This document shows, in pieces, positions 11,717 to 64,000 of a stretch of DNA of 64,000 nucleotides. The DNA comes from Cymodocea nodosa. Lineage: Eukaryota; Streptophyta; Magnoliopsida; Alismatales; Cymodoceaceae. How positions within the stretch are numbered: position 1 is the stretch's first letter; each line of letters opens with the position of its first letter. The stretch covers positions 20,296,501-20,360,500 of the forward strand of contig CM072338.1 of NCBI GenBank assembly GCA_036874045.1, in the 5' to 3' direction. The notes under the pieces were generated by a model. It had not been told where the DNA came from and made no database searches. It worked only from the letters and a program-made list of their open reading frames with translations. Both the position numbers and the translations under genes were made by a program.

Positions 11717-14700
11717 GTTTTTAGGAAAGTCAGTGGTCATCCAAGTTTTTTGAGTTTTTTTTAATTTTACTTGTTTAAAACAAGTTATGTGTAAACGTGG
11801 GTTGCTTGACGTGTGTTTTAAATACATCCTGTGTACGCTTGTTCATGTTGAATGAATTCCTCTACAACCTTCATCTATTTCTCATCTCTTCTCGAAACCT
11901 TTCAATCTCCCTTCTTGAAACTCAAGCTTCAACAAGTAAATCATCAAATTGGTATCAGGGTTAGGTTTGGACGATCAAGATGGATGTTGATTAAACCTTC
12001 AACCAGCTTAGTCTGTCCAAGTTCGATGGTGATAACCATCAGTACTGAGTTTTTCAAATGCAAGTCCATCTAGAAGGGTTTGATTTCTAGGAAGTGATAG
12101 AGGATAATTATCTAATACCAATACTTCCAGAGAACCCAACGATGCCACAGTTGAAGAATACAAAGGAATGACATTTAAGGAAAGCTAAGGCCAAATTTGT
12201 CTTGTTTTCAGCAGTCATTCCTAATATATTTGCACGAGCAATGTCTCTGCCAACTGCAAAGGAAATAAATTTGGGATTATTTGAAGGTTGAGTTCTCTGG
12301 CGATGATCGAATCAAGGGCATGAAAGTCCTTAATCTTGTACGTGAATTTGAACTACTTCAGATGAAGGAATCTAATACTATTAAAGAGTAGACCAACAAG
12401 CTCCTTTCCATAGCAAATAAGGTGCATTTGTTGGGTACCACTTTCTCTGATTCATGTGTTGTTGAGAAAATTTCGATTACTGTACCAAAAAAGTATGAGG
12501 CTTCAATCGCCACGATTGAGAATACTTGTGACTTATCCAATATTACACTTGGTGAGTTGATGAATGCGCTACAAGCTCAAGAGCAGCGATGTATGATGAG
12601 GCAAGAGCCAATAGCTGAAGGTGCCTTATTTGCTAAGAACATCGTCAGTAAAAAGGAGAAGAATAAAGCTAGGAAGAAGTTTGCTAGTAATTCGATCAAA
12701 AAGAAGGAAGACACCAGTTCAAAACCGTCATCTCAGAGGAAATAAAATGTTGGAGGAGACCTATTGCCCAATGTACGCGGTGTAATCAAGTAAGGCATGA
12801 AGCAATTATTTGCAAGTTGAACAAGGCTCAAGCAGAAAATAATCTACAGTAAGGTCCAAAGGGAGAATGTGAAGAAGAATGTCTTTTCTTAGCAGCAATA
12901 AGTACTAATGATTCATTTATTCCCACCGATTCTTGGCTTGTTGACTCAGGTTGTAAAAATCATATGACATTTGATAGAAGTTTATTTACAAGCATTACAT
13001 CCACCAATTTCACTCATGTAAGAATTGGAAATGGAGATTTATTACCAGCATTAGAGAAAGGTACTATTACCCTTTCCACAAATGTTCGAATATGCTATTT
13101 GTCAGATGTTTTGTTTGTTCTTGCAATTGATCAGAATCTGATAAGCGTTGATAAATTACTAGAGAATAATTACAAGATTCATTTTGAAGATAATTATTGT
13201 TATATTCTGGACCATTTGGGTTGTAGAATATTTAAAGTAAGGATGAAGAGATGTAGTTTCTCTTTAAATATGGAGAAAGATTCAGCATTAGTATATGTTG
13301 GATCTCATCAACCATCTGATCGATGGCATTAGTGGTTGGGTCATTGTAGTGTTGATCGCATGAAACAATTGGCAAAACTTTTTGATGATCAAAATTTTTT
13401 TGAGGAGATTGGAAATTGCAAAACATGACAGTCAAGCAAAATTATGTAAGAGATCCTTTAAAACCAACAACTTGGAGGGTTGAATCAAAATTGTATCTAG
13501 TTCATTCAAACATAGATGGACCAATGAGTATTGCCTCATTTAATGGTAATCTCTATTTTATCATATTCATTGATGATTATTCACACATGAGTTGGATTTA
13601 TTTCATCAAGGAAAAATCTGAGGCATCAGATATTTTTCGTCAATTTAAAGACCTTGTGGAGAATTAGAGTAATTCTCGAGTTAAAATAATTCGTATAGAC
13701 AATGGAGGTGAATATGTAAGTGCTGGATTCAGAATAAGTTACCTACAAGATTGCTGAAGAAGTTAACACCATTTGAAACTTAGTATGGATACAAACCAAA
13801 GTATGATCACTTACGCGCCTTTGGTTGTAGTTGTTACACACATGTATCGAGTATCAAGAGGGATAAGTTGGATGCAAGAGCAACACCTGGGATTTTTGTT
13901 GGATGCAATGATGTATCAAAAGCTTACCGAGTCTGTCTCCCAACGTCAAAAAAGGTAGCTATTTCAATAGATTTGAAGTTTTTTGAAGATGAGAAATAAC
14001 AATGGGAATGTGAAAACACAAAGCAATCACCAAGTCAGTCAACAACTCCACAAAGAAATCAATCGAAAACATTTGATTCTGACATTGAAAATAATGAAGA
14101 AACAACTTTAGTCAAAGGAACCAAATTCTTAGCCAATATTTATGCCCAGACAAATGTTGTTGATGTTGAACCGATCTCTTGTGACAGAAGCTTTGCAAGA
14201 TCCTCAATGGAGAAGGGTGATGGAAGAAGAATTAGAAATGATTCAAAATACTAATACATGGCAACTTCTTATTGAAAAACTTGCAGATAAAAAGGTCATA
14301 GGTGTGAAATGGGTGTTCCAGATTAAACAGAATCTTAATGGTTCCATACGTAAACATAAAGCTTGTTTGGTGGTGAAAGGTTATGTGCAAGAATATGGGA
14401 TAGACTATTCAGACGCATTTGCTCCTAGGGCACATCAATATACAATCAAATTAATTCTTGTAGTTGTAGCTCAATTTAATTGGAAGATACATCAATTGAA
14501 TGTAAAATTGACCTTTCTGCATGGAGATTTAATTGAAGAAGTCTACGTGGAGCAGTCTACTATTTTTGAAGATTCCAGTAATGCATCTAAAGTGTATCGA
14601 CTCAATAAGGCATTGTATAACCTCAAACAAACTCCAAGAGCTTGGCATAGTAAGATCGATTTCTTTCTTTTAGAATTTGGATTTATTAAAAGCTTATCAG

Positions 14701-15915
14701 AGGTGGCCACCCTTTATGTAAAAAATGAGTTGCATAATCTTCTAGTGGTGTCACTGTATGTTGACGATCTTCTTATCATGGGGAGTGATGATTCAAAATT
14801 TTAAAAATAAGATGAAGATTAAATTTTCAAATGACAGATATTAGATTAGCTACTTATTTCTTAGGTTTGTAGATTTTACAGACTGAAAATAGAATCGTAA
14901 TCAACCAACAGAGGTATGTTGTGGGTTTACTTGAAAAGTTTGGCATGGCAAATAGCAAATCTGTTACTACACCCTTCTGTTTTAAGGAAAAATTGATTGA
15001 AGAGTCAATGGAAGCTTGTGTGGATGAACAACATTATCGAAGCGTTGTTGGTAGTCTGATATTCCTTACGACAACCCGACCAGATATATTATATGTCGTA
15101 ACAAGGTTATCTCGATTTATGCACTGTGCTACTCAAGTGCATATGAAAGCCTGCAAAAAGAGTTCTCAAGTATATCAAAAGTACATCAAAGTTTGGGCTT
15201 GATTTTAGGCGGAATGATAACCCAACACTATTAGGATATTCTAACAGTGATTGGGTTAGATCTACTGATTTCAAAAGCACTTCTGGATACTATTTTTCGT
15301 TTGGAAGTAACATATTTTCTTGAAGTTCAAAAAAGGCAAAGTTTGATTGCCCAATCTACCGTAGAAGTTGAAATCATAGTAGTGAATGCGGTTGTTAAAC
15401 AAGCCATATGGCTAAGAAAGTTGTTGGTTGATCTACACTTGAAGCCAACAGGCGCGCCACAAAAGTATTGGTCGATAATCAGACAGCTTTAGCAATCTCT
15501 CTCGTAATCCAGTACTTTATGGTTGAACTAAACATTTTAATATTAAATACTATATTTTGTTCATGAGATGCAGAAGCTTGGCGAGGCGAGGCGATTTTAG
15601 CTTATTGTAGATGTGAAGATCAGACTGTTGATGTGTTTACAAAGCCTTTACGTGTTGATCGATTTCAACTACTACGAGAAAGTCTTAGTATTCGTGTGAT
15701 CTAAATCAGTAGGAGAGTTAATTGAATTTAGATCATGTGTTGTGTGGGTTGTAAAGACGTTGACTGTGTCAATATTTTTTAAATACTTCAATATCTTTAT
15801 TTTTAGGAGAGTCTGTGGTCATCCAGGGTTTTTCAGTTTATTTTTAATTTTACTTATTTAAAACAAGTTATGTGTGAACGTGGGTTGCATGATCATCATC
15901 GACCTGTGCTTTAAA
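11717..15915 (+). mobile_element. Ty1/copia LTR retrotransposon, old and broken
   Basis: A fossil element in plus orientation. LTR-derived sequence is seen at about 11717-11940 and 15735-15915, sharing the region around GTGGTCATCCA and AACAAGTTATGTGT. A primer-binding site (TGGTATCAGGGTT) lies near 11950. The parts follow in copia order: gag (about 11980-12760), a zinc-knuckle region and protease (DSGCKNH near 12945), integrase (about 13320-13970), reverse transcriptase (about 14140-14860, with YVDDLL) and RNase H (about 14920-15560). Integrase before reverse transcriptase identifies copia rather than gypsy. The coding region is broken in many places, about ten or more, and the LTR remnants differ at roughly a tenth of sites, so the insertion is old. 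It lies upstream of the GNAT gene. Confidence 0.88.
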
Positions 15916-42500: not shown

Positions 42501-45500
42501 CCTTTTGAATTGCCATATTATATTCTTCTAAGAAATCTTGTCTACAGGATGAACTTGAGAAGGGCTCTTCCGATTCTTCAAGGTAGGCCTTTTCCTGGTA
42601 TAACTATTTTTGGTTCTACTTCTGTCTTAGCTAACTAAGAAAATGCACTCAGAAATAAGTTACTAAGGGCGCTAGATTCAAGAGTTGCAGCCCTTAATCA
42701 AGAGTTAGCCAATATGTTCACTCGAGCTTTGGGCAACAACTGTTCAAAAGTTCAACTTTCCAATTTGACTGCATTTGTTGAACATTTCGGATCAAGCGAG
42801 TTGAGGTACATTGTGAGACTCCTATTAATAGAATTTTTTGCATGGCATTATTGTATGGAATGTGAAATGAGTAAACAGCTTTTTCATTGTTGTATCAGAC
42901 TCAGTGAACATGCCATACTTTGTTCGTTTTATGCATTGTTTGCAATGCCATTAGTTATGAATTTACACTACATTCAAGTTTGTGATCATCAATTTCTTGC
43001 TCATGTGCGTCAAAACTTCCAGTTTCCAAAAAATACCTACACTGTTTAATTCTCCAATACTCTAGATGAAGTTGCCTTCACTTATTACAGGGATTCTTTG
43101 GGCAAGTACTTTCGATTGCAATTTCATGGTGAACTTGCTGATACTCCCCATGATTATTCAGAATTATTGTCACATGATTTAAGGAACCATGTTGAAGAGA
43201 GAATTGTGGATAAGTCTACATCAAATTCACAGACTGAATGCAAAAATGCCACATACAGCAGCATCTCTCCTGCAAAAATTGCACAAGCAGAGCGCCAAAG
43301 CTCAAGTGAAAGTGATAAATCTTCTGATTCAAGTGAAGAGATTCAATCTTTTGTTGAAAGAAGCCGACCTGCCATAAGATCTGCATCTCCTAGACGATCA
43401 GCTTCTCCCTTGCGAAGAATCCAAATTGGGCGATCAGGACCACGAAGATCTACTGCACTAACCATCAAGAGCCTGAGTTACTTTCCAGCTAGAGAAAAGC
43501 CATCATTCAACAGAGATGATAACGAGAATAACAGTGGAGATGAATCATCTGAAGCACAACCAAAAAGATCTGAGAATGCATGTCTGCGGATGAGTGTACA
43601 AGATCGAATAAATCTCTTTGAAAGCAAACAGAGAGATAAAACTTCAGACACCCAGAAGAAGAATTTAACCACGGAGTCAACCTTTGGTGCTAAAAAATCT
43701 GTTTTGAGGAGATGGAGTGTGGGCATGGGTGATTCTTCTACGTTGCATGCTCATGAAAATACATCTGACGGTAAGGCACAACCCTCTTCAAATAATTCAG
43801 AAATTACTCAGGATAAATCTCATGCAGAAGAGGCATTTGATATTGAAAAGCCTAATCATGAACAAGTGGAAACTGCTGCTGATGTATTATCCCAAGAGGT
43901 TCAGGATACATCATCAACTTCAGTCTCTATTCCTACTACTACTGACACACCTCACTTTGAAGCAACCCATAATAGATCTGCTACCTCGGCAGAGTGGAGT
44001 AGGCGGAAGGAGGCTGAGCTCAATCAGATGCTTATGAAAATGATGGAAAGTAAACCTGCTGGTGCTGGTTGGGCTCATGAGTCCGGTGAGCAAAAAGGGA
44101 ATTTTCATAATAGCCACTATAAGGTGAAAAGAGATCCAAAACTACGATTGGAGAGTGCCAATAAACAGACTGAGAAGGAAACAAAGTCCAAGGTGATGCG
44201 GGGTAGGGTGAACAATAAAAAGACATTTGTTTCCCCAAAAGTAGCCAGTGCTGGTGGAAAACATGATTCCTCTGCTTATTCCCAGAAGACACGAAGAAAT
44301 TCTTCCCCCCCAGTCATGGAAAAAGTTTCAAGCCCAAATCCTGTTACTGCCAGGAAGGCTTCACCCAAGGCTCCAGCTGTGACTGCTGGACGCAACTCCT
44401 GCCCATCTATTCCATCCCCAAGAACAGCTGGAACACCGCCTTCTAAAACTTCATCTGGCATGACTAATAACACTAAGATGAACCACAGAAAACCTCAATC
44501 AACTCCATCACCAACTCAGGCTACAGCACGGACCGAAAGACCAAGGCAACTGAAAGGAACAAGAAGCTCTGTTACAGAAAACAAGAATAATTTGAAAGCT
44601 AAGAATGAAACAAAACCAAAGACCATGGCAAAGTCCAGCAAAAGCATCAAAACAAAATCCACAAATCCCCCACGTGATGATTCCGGTGCAAGTCCTGCCA
44701 AGCCAAGCTTATATAGCAAGGTCACCAAAAAGAGCAGTGTAGTGCCTTTGGAGCCAAAGCCCTTTCTGAGAAAAGGAACTGGTATTGCTTCTGGTGTTGA
44801 TCCTGTATCGGCAAAAATAAAATCTGTTCAGCCTGACGAACCCTCCAAGGATGTTGTAAATGTGATTCAAACAGAGAAGGAATCTTCTTTTGAGGCTGTC
44901 GAGAAGATGAATGAACATCAAGAGGAAGACTCTACCCAGCTTCCTAGTGATGGTATAAACCTAGACGATCCTGTTGATGCTGATTTGGTTTCTGAGAAGA
45001 CACAGGCATCGGAGCCATCTGCTACTGAAATGGTCCAAACTGAGAACATTATAGCACAATCAATAGAAATTCCGGCAATCAGCATCCATGCTGATGATGA
45101 GTCGGGCATCTCATCAAGTGCATGGGTTGAGGTAGACAGCGTTGGAGATCCTGCACCACTAGGCGGCGACCTCCCAAACACTGCAACATATGCCGATGCT
45201 ATGCCAGCTTTGATATCCAGCCCAAGGGTTCGGCATTCACTGTCACAAATGTTGCAAGCTGAGAGTATAGAGCCAGAGATTATTGAGTGGGGAAATGCTG
45301 AAATTCCACCTGCTTTGGTTTATCAAAAGGATGCACCAAGAGGGTTGAAGAGGCTCTTGAAATTTGCTAGAAAGAACAAGGGAGAATCGAATATGAATGA
45401 TTACTTAAGTGCTTCGGTCAAGTCTGATGGAGAGGAAGACACGGAAGAGCCTAGAATGATCAACAAGAGGAATATAGATGCTTCATTGAAGAAGGCAGCC

Positions 45501-45950
45501 GTCAAACCAAAGGGCACGGGGATCCATAGAAACATGCTCAGTGAAAGCTATGATTGTGGAAATTCAAGCAAGGGTTCAGCAAATCATCTAAGCAATCGTG
45601 AGTTTCTATCAGGTAAAATTTACCTAAAGAATATTCAAAAAAATAACGAATCATCCATCCTCACTCTCTTTTGATATCATCATTATTTTCTCTAATTTTT
45701 CCTTTTATTCTGACAGCTAGTATGAATGGCCTTCCGTCTGGTACTCACAAGCTGCGAGAAGGGCGCACATCTGCTGCTTCATCCTCTTCGGCTAAAGGTA
45801 TGATTGTATGTCTTTTGCAAACTGTTTTCCGAGCGTGTCCTCCTTCGTTGTATAGCAAACCGTCATTGTTTTTTCATCTCAGGGACACGGTCGTTCTTTT
45901 CCCTCTCAAACTTTAGGAGTAACAAATCAAGTGAAGCAAAACTTCGTTGA
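39535..45950 (+). CDS. COP1-interacting protein 7-like protein
   Basis: Ten exons were assembled: 39535-39605, 39706-39888, 39979-40090, 40232-40265, 42434-42453, 42548-42582, 42653-42805, 43091-45612, 45717-45797 and 45883-45950. All are GT-AG and in phase, giving 1092 residues. The N-terminus (EVDPDVILDYVIFNI, TEKVTSGLLDVL, SSWFTKSTLTWFLHI) and the LLRALDSRVAALNQELANMF...FVEHFGSSELRDSL region are those of plant CIP7-like proteins. The long exon 8 is disordered, rich in Ser, Lys and Pro, with SPRRSASPLRR and repeated basic stretches. The C-terminus GTRSFFSLSNFRSNKSSEAKLR (shown in part: RSFFSLSNFRSNK) is conserved in the family. Arabidopsis CIP7 is a nuclear positive regulator of light-responsive genes that binds COP1; this member belongs to a related branch and its role is inferred. 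Exons 4-6 are only 34, 20 and 35 nt. Confidence 0.88.
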
Positions 45951-61926: not shown

Positions 61927-63492
61927 ATGGAGACGGAGATCTACGCCTTTGGCGCTTACAAGATTGCGGCGAGCGAGGTGTTCTACTCCACGCCGCTCTC
62001 CTACGCCATGGTGAACCTGAGGCCCCTTCTACCTGGTAATAAAGCAAGGATCTCTTTGCATCCTCCCTTTCACCCGAACTTATTGATGAACGCGACGTGT
62101 TCTCGGGATCCGTTTGTCACTGTTTGGTAGAGATTGAATAGTTTTCTCTAAGAATCAGTGTTGTTGGAGTTGTGCACTTTGCTGATGTTTGATTTGTTTG
62201 TTGGATCATCGACACTGGGTAGATATGGAGAGAGCTTTTGATGGAGGTAAGGGTAAATGGGGACAGGTGTGCTGGAAGAATTGAACTTCAGTTGATTCCC
62301 CTTTCAAGAAAAATGGAAATTTGTCTATGGCTAATCTCATTTAATCAATGGTAAACATCCACTAAAAAAACTGTGTATAACATCTGTTCTCTAATTTTTA
62401 GCACAAATGCTTCATTGAGCCAAGCTACAATAAATAGGCACTGATTAAAATAATCTGATGTAAGCAATCAGACTCTGAACAAGTTTAAATCTGGCTTGAC
62501 CAGGAAAGTAAAATCTATGCTTTCCTGACCTTTCTTACTGGGAATCATATTGTATACTACCTTTAATAGAACATTACGAAGAGCATAACATCTGACTTAC
62601 TGTTTAATTGGATAAGAAAAATAAAAAATAGCGTCTTTTGAATGATTATTATTATTGTCTGCTAAAGCTTACTAAAAGCATTTTTTTTCCTGCATATTTA
62701 TACATTACATTCTTGATATGTAATGCACTTATTAAATTTTGTTGTATTTCTATTGATAGGAATTTTTTTCCTTTAGTAGAACCTTGATGCATTGAAAATT
62801 AATGAAAATAGAGATACAGGATTCTTTATCTCATCTTTGAGATTTATCATGTATATTATTTTTGCTGTTTTATTTTTAATCTAATCACACTTTTGCCCCT
62901 TTGCAGGTCATATCCTTCTACATAATACTGTTTCATCTCTTTTTATGCCCAAAGATGCCTGGGCTTACCCTTGATGAGCACGATGCTATATCTCATTCAC
63001 CTTTTTATTATGCATTTCTACAACTGTGGCTTATCCTTCATTCATTGGTGTGCAATCAACATGATTAATTATGGTTACCAAGTTCTTAGCAAGCATACCA
63101 TCTTACAGTTACAACCATAAGATTCAGGAATGCAGAATGCCATCAAATAAAAAGCAAACCAAAGATACATTTGTATTTGCATTATTAATCTTTTCTTTTT
63201 GTATCATCACAATGTAATATTAAATAGCTCATTCATGTCGTGTTTCACATGGACTTAGTTTGCAAGGCAATATTGGGATCACAATATTGTATGTACAAAA
63301 ATACATTTGGTGCAATCTTGTGTTTGTTCAAATTAACTTTGTATACATGTTCTTGTGTGCCCAAGACGTGAAGTGAAGCGATTTGTTGATCTTACTGCTG
63401 ATGAGACTGGTGATCTATGGATGACAGCAAAGAGGGTTGGTTCTCAATTGGAGAGTTATCATAAAGCATCTTCACTCACATTTGCTATACAG
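61927..63492 (+). CDS. FHIT: FHIT-type dinucleoside triphosphatase, 5' part
   Basis: Exon 1 (61927-62035) encodes METEIYAFGAYKIAASEVFYSTPLSYAMVNLRPLLPG (in part: VFYSTPLSYAMVNLRPLLPG), the start of the HIT-family FHIT enzyme. Exon 3 (63347-63492) continues VLVCPRREVKRFVDLTADETGDL and ends SSLTFAIQ. The conserved GHVLVCP junction forms only if a 3-nt exon GTC (62907-62909) is placed between them. The intron after it begins ATATCCTTCT and ends TATAC, the U12-type AT-AC pattern. The exon carrying the histidine triad (HVHIH) must lie beyond the right edge. FHIT hydrolyses Ap3A-type dinucleotides to AMP plus ADP, and the Arabidopsis enzyme also acts on adenylylsulfate. The first ATG in frame is 61927. 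Confidence 0.85.
62910..63346 (+). other. Candidate U12-type AT-AC intron of FHIT
   Basis: The 5' end ATATCCTTCT matches the U12 AT-AC donor consensus (ATATCCTT). The 3' end is TATAC, with no AG near the required junction: an in-frame TAA lies 9 nt upstream of the exon, so an acceptor further upstream cannot be used. A branch-like TTAAC at 63333-63337 puts its adenosine about 11 nt from the junction, the usual U12 distance. Joining GTC to ATGTTCTTGTG restores GHVLV. Confidence 0.65.
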
Positions 63493-64000
63493 GTAACCTT
63501 TTTGGATTGTCTACTATATATCTTCTCTCTTTTTTTGTAAAATAGATGAATTCATCATTTAAGAAATAAAAAGAGTACCAAACTTTTGCAGAATGGCCCT
63601 TCCATTTACACCCATTTATTTAAAAGTTGTGTACACATACATTCATTGACTCCTCACCCCACCCAAAACACAAACACACACCAAGGATTTTTGTGTCATT
63701 TGATTCATTAAGAAGTGATATAATTTACTCATACCTTTTCCAGAACAGAATCTCCTTTCTTACCAATATCATATATATGCAACTAATTGCTACCTTTATC
63801 TCTGTTCCCTAGGACCTTGGGTGTGAATTTTCCAATCCTTTTCAACAACTTCTATCTTTATCATGTAAATTTTATCTACACATGGTAAATACAGAATTTG
63901 TATGCTTGCCCAAAAATACCGTGTTTAAAAAAATCACAATTCAGCATTTTGTAGTTAATTTCAAAAGTTCATAATTAACAATCTTTGAACATGAAATATA

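Follow-up and report, generated by a model that had tools for sequence, protein, structure and literature searches.

A FHIT-like gene near the right end of the window (the whole 64,000-nt stretch of DNA analysed) very probably contains a constitutive microexon of only three nucleotides, GTC, at 62907-62909 on the + strand. This predicted microexon lies between a U2-type GT-AG intron and a putative U12-type AT-AC intron, which would be spliced sequentially. Both spliceosomes would have to act within three bases of each other for the correct protein to be made. Its bases provide the last two bases of a Gly codon and the first base of a His codon in the motif PGHVLVCP. Plant microexons are understood here as internal exons of 1-15 nt that restore a conserved protein and, judged from the DNA letters, GTC is one of them. 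While microexons and U12 introns are each known in plants, their combination was not found in the open-licence literature searched.

The gene is predicted from its coding exons to encode a plant FHIT-like (HIT-domain) protein. Coding exon 1 (61927-62035, + strand, 109 nt) runs from the start ATG at 61927 to the first base of a Gly codon. Its 3′ end, ...CTACCTG at 62035, is in phase 1 and is followed by GTAATAAAGC, so that the letters and coordinates proposed for this end in an earlier note on the DNA are right. The translation of exon 1 (METEIYAFGAYKIAASEVFYSTPLSYAMVNLRPLLP+G) aligns to solved FHIT chains. Coding exon 3 (63347-63492, + strand, 146 nt) encodes (H)VLVCPRREVKRFVDLTADETGDLWMTAKRVGSQLESYHKASSLTFAIQ and ends in CAG, followed by a GTAACC donor at 63493. 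Both of these long exons are open and, in the joined protein, Q86 is aligned opposite Q83 of a FHIT chain. The remainder of the gene is found past the window end (64000). The visible exons hold only the N-terminal HIT part and lack HxHxH, the catalytic motif of FHIT and of the HIT superfamily. Human FHIT exon 6 presumably spans c.104-249 and would thereby have the same length (146 nt) and the same borders as exon 3. We found no printed borders of the human FHIT exons in the open-licence literature searched. The Arabidopsis FHIT locus we assume to be At5g58240.

Joining exons 1 and 3 via GTC leads to the protein METEIYAFGAYKIAASEVFYSTPLSYAMVNLRPLLPGHVLVCPRREVKRFVDLTADETGDLWMTAKRVGSQLESYHKASSLTFAIQ, which has matches to nine distinct PDB sequences at E values up to 0.001. 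The best five of these carry the name fragile histidine triad protein, bis(5′-adenosyl)-triphosphatase or Nit-FHIT fusion, and PGHVLVCP is gapless against FHIT in the three alignments listed. The best FHIT match has a score of 78.9 bits (E = 1.9e-21). Without GTC, the protein reads LLPDVLVCP and the best FHIT score is 66.7 bits with a gapped alignment. The Pfam HIT profile (PF01230, matched by the GTC-joined protein from position 5 to 76 of 98) gives 55.0 bits with GTC compared to 39.2 without, a loss of around 16 bits. Since even the form lacking GTC stays above the Pfam cut-off of 21.5 bits, this score favours GTC and does not forbid its absence.

We also enumerated the single middle exons of 3-60 nt, in multiples of three, that could link exon 1 to the edge of exon 3 with both of these kept fixed. 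Candidates had an AG before them, a GT, GC or AT after them and left the frame open, while pairs of small exons fall outside this enumeration. PGHVLVCP is restored by a single one of the 108 candidates and this is GTC, in agreement with the earlier note, which had picked these three bases after TTTGCAG to complete the motif. GTC is also alone among the 108 in being followed by a complete (10/10) match to RTATCCTTYY, the next best candidates reaching 8.

The upstream intron (62036-62906, + strand, 871 nt) has the features of a U2-type GT-AG intron. The donor, CTG/GTAATA (slashes mark exon borders), matches CAGGTAAGT at 6/9 positions, and the acceptor TTTGCAG is found directly 5′ of GTC. CTAAT at 62881-62885 is the sole CTRAY in the last 57 nt; its branch A is 22 nt from the acceptor and the sequence following it up to the 3′ end of the intron reads CACACTTTTGCCCCTTTGCAG. 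A GT at 62247 (GAGGTAAGG) inside this intron is closer to the U1 consensus than the exon-1 donor (7/9 versus 6/9) and two more GTs between 61990 and 62300 tie with that donor (6/9). All three sit past the stop that is met when exon 1 is read through into the intron. Regarding the source of the intron, no clear signs of a transposon origin were found: no inverted repeats of at least 14 nt are present in 61980-62960, a region with only two weak direct-repeat pairs. There is also no convincing second copy of the intron in the window (best other match 21 nt, E = 0.046).

The signals of the downstream intron (62910-63346, + strand, 437 nt, phase 1) support its assignment as a putative U12-type intron, the rare class removed by the minor spliceosome. 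AT-AC introns of this class have been described with a ATATCCTT 5′ splice site, a TCCTTAAC branch site and an AC end (PMC2831892), and the optimal distance from branch to 3′ splice site in U12 introns has been given as 11-13 nt (PMC3584512). An exact ATATCCTTCT, which conforms to ATATCCTT, is found at 62910-62919, directly 3′ of GTC. The description of this donor as a perfect U12 AT-AC site holds against RTATCCTTYY (10/10); against ATATCCTTTT, the match is 9/10. At the other end, the intron closes with TATAC at 63346, and a TTAAC core (63333-63337, + strand) sets the distance between branch A and 3′ splice site at 10 or 11 nt, depending on which A serves as the branch, and this equals or falls just short of the optimum. 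The earlier note had put this distance at about 11 nt. TTAAC agrees with the TCCTTAAC consensus in its final five bases only, with AAA upstream instead of TCC, and is weak evidence because it is also found elsewhere in the window. No CTRAY is present in the last 57 nt, and the last 21 nt contain 57% pyrimidines compared to 71% in the upstream intron. The gene thereby shares the donor, the TTAAC core, the AC end and the lower pyrimidine content near the 3′ end with U12-type AT-AC introns.

No ordinary acceptor is available for the start of exon 3. There is no AG in 63267-63363 and therefore no U2 acceptor at the edge of exon 3: the closest AGs on either side of the 63346/63347 junction have their last bases at 63266 and 63365, and the His codon is preceded, at a distance of 9 nt, by an in-frame TAA stop (63334-63336). 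The missing AG and the stop had both been pointed out from the letters and are confirmed here.

Two further elements were seen within the downstream intron. CCTTGAT, another sequence resembling a U12 branch site, has its last base 66 nt into the intron, with an AC downstream of it at 62980-62981 (the whole spanning 62969-62981); splicing at this AC would leave 64 codons before a stop. This second site may be a competitor, a decoy site or a chance occurrence. Around 60 nt before the end of the intron, there is a 22-nt near-palindrome (CAATATTGGGATCACAATATTG, 63268-63289) with a 90.9% self-match to the opposite strand.

Next, we investigated how often this arrangement is expected by chance, shuffling the 1311-nt region 20,000 times at the dinucleotide level. 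AG/GNC/RTATCCTT was found in 1 of the 20,000 shuffles (analytic expectation about 1e-4) and the shorter AG/GNC/RTATCC in 12, while RTATCCTT alone was found in 1373 and CAG/GNC alone in 6387. Across the window, ATATCCTTYT occurs once, and 52 of 100 shuffled versions of the window have at least one copy (0.69 on average). The combined pattern YAGGNCRTATCCTTY likewise has a single copy in the window and is found in 0 of 100 shuffles. Because the parts are common in the shuffles and AG/GNC/RTATCCTT is found in only one of them, the evidence rests on the conjunction of the signals and not on the single parts, which are unremarkable. Elsewhere in the window, RTATCCTT is found at four further positions, 5360 and 40146 on the + strand and 37249 and 10588 on the - strand. 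A quick look within 1.5 kb of these four revealed no convincing U12 branch site with an acceptor.

The most serious rival to the microexon uses U2 sites throughout, with the exon-1 donor spliced to an AAG ending at 63373 inside exon 3. Of four AGs tried (63365, 63373, 63378 and 63405) out of the 11 in exon 3, this is the only one whose join (CCTG to 63374) keeps the frame open, and a gene predictor or automatic annotation limited to GT-AG introns may produce this form. Nonetheless, the join loses ten residues, GHVLVCPRRE, and with them the HIT segment common to FHIT chains, PGH included. It also relies on an AG within coding sequence that has no clear pyrimidine tract, and it turns the GTC/U12 arrangement, found in 1 of 20,000 shuffles, into a coincidence. 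We therefore regard it as very unlikely.

A coincidence is likewise assumed if the copy of the gene seen here is decaying or misassembled, or if a pair of other small exons is used in place of GTC. The gene runs off the window and our enumeration was of single middle exons of 3-60 nt between fixed outer edges, which gives such readings some room. However, with both visible long exons open and a joined protein that matches FHIT gaplessly, we give them slightly less credit still. Finally, CAG/GTC contains the letters AG/GT and could be a ratchet (zero-length recursive) site, where exon 1 is spliced to AG/GT and the product is then re-spliced to a downstream AG. But the rejoined CTG/GTCATA is a poor U2 donor and there is no AG at the edge of exon 3, so the in-frame product would lack GHVLVCPRRE; of all the readings weighed here, this is the one we believe least.

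If GTC is used as the predicted microexon, the two introns would have to be removed one after the other, since U2AF at the AG and U11 at ATATCCTT would not fit side by side over 3 nt and would collide. Removal of the U12 intron first would fuse GTC with exon 3 into an exon of normal size (149 nt), leaving the U2 intron to be removed second. The reverse order would likewise give intermediates of normal size. We consider the U12-first order somewhat likelier because plant microexons tend to lose their downstream intron first. Among 69 constitutive microexons in Arabidopsis, 16 had reads with the sole downstream intron removed and none with the sole upstream intron removed, 4 showed the reverse and 49 had both; downstream-first reads were more numerous for 32 of these 49 (PMC8831610). 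These data concern GT-AG or GC-AG introns, unlike the AT-AC intron here. U12 splicing has been described as slower (PMC8329584), which would favour removal of the U2 intron first, while both intron types have elsewhere been held to be fast (PMC7367187).

The difference in class between the two introns should also guard the inclusion of GTC. If exon 1 were joined directly to exon 3, the donor would be of U2 type and the acceptor a U12 AC site. GT-AC and AT-AG combinations have been described as disfavoured, and the infrequent skipping of exons next to U12 introns has been put down to incompatible site classes and to how few genes carry two or more U12 introns (PMC3584512). Simple skipping of GTC should, for this reason, be rare. 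Nonetheless, the class mismatch is not absolute, since a hybrid intron with a U12 donor and a U2 acceptor has been described in the JNK family (PMC3584512), and the arrangement should be seen as skip-resistant, not skip-proof. With the U2 intron alone taken out, the reading frame meets a stop after 58 codons, and slow U12 splicing could thereby limit FHIT expression.

The surrounding window looks like plant nuclear DNA. Of ten window proteins in a profile scan, two are forms of FHIT and seven correspond to PPR, RVT_2 reverse transcriptase, P450, EF-hand, DUF936 (a plant family), protein kinase and LURP-one; no model matched the product of the open reading frame at 43050-45671. The RVT_2 reverse transcriptase domain is found at 14133-14801, in what is probably part of a copia-type retrotransposon, and the open reading frame at 12853-13332 may belong to the same element. 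There are no Rfam matches in the window at gathering scores and no tRNAs were found in it by ARAGORN. We also looked for relatives of the exon-3 peptide: in viral contigs, 51 pattern matches led to no confirmed relative and, in genome contigs, 419 pattern matches led to one bacterial HIT-like match (Myxococcales), which is uninformative on introns. A DNA pattern built for a hypothetical form of the gene lacking intron 1 gave no match in the viral contigs.

The earlier note had described GTC as close to the smallest exons known. An exon of 3 nt is indeed small, although it is no record: constitutive 1-nt exons have been described in plants for APC11 (PMC4674806) and for APC11 and VPS55 (PMC8831610), and an alternatively spliced 3-bp exon has been published in the fly (PMC7392893). 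Given these examples, exon size alone is not new. The ultra-short microexons of plants (the 1-nt exons of APC11 and VPS55 and the 9-nt mini-exon of invertase) resemble GTC in that a tiny exon restores the frame or a conserved motif, and consecutive removal of the introns has been proposed for them as it is here (PMC4674806, PMC8831610). They differ in their flanks. In the survey by Yu et al. 2022, based on a read-based search plus prediction, both flanking introns are GT-AG or GC-AG only (PMC8831610). The downstream flank of GTC is AT-AC, and GTC accordingly falls outside the method of that survey, whose main text mentions neither 'HIT' nor 'U12'.

Compared with usual U12-type AT-AC introns, the exon upstream is here only 3 nt long, which would make cross-exon pairing with the U2 intron sterically implausible. 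Both intron classes are also found close together in U2/U12 twintrons and in genes with mutually exclusive U2/U12 sites such as prospero and the JNK family (PMC3584512, PMC3564746). In these known cases the sites are described as competing, whereas the introns here are in series and both must go. No microexon with flanking introns of the U2 and U12 classes was found in the open-licence literature searched, and a whole-word match of the open-licence literature found no paper on a plant FHIT gene with a U12 intron.

It is conceivable, though on balance doubtful, that GTC belongs to a hidden class of ultra-short plant exons placed between introns of different spliceosome classes, where the mismatch makes the exon nearly unskippable and which annotation and surveys limited to GT-AG introns have missed. 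As part of this tentative proposal, the U12 intron of FHIT would be ancient, given that the borders presumed for human exon 6 match those of exon 3, and the U2 intron would be a later gain three bases upstream. The gene would serve as a natural experiment on how two spliceosomes handle a common exon that is too short for contacts across it, and on whether the class of the splice sites alone can make a microexon be included. The case also reveals a blind spot: the main survey of microexons in plants, being restricted to GT-AG and GC-AG flanks, would miss such exons (PMC8831610), and the proteins they encode may be misannotated.
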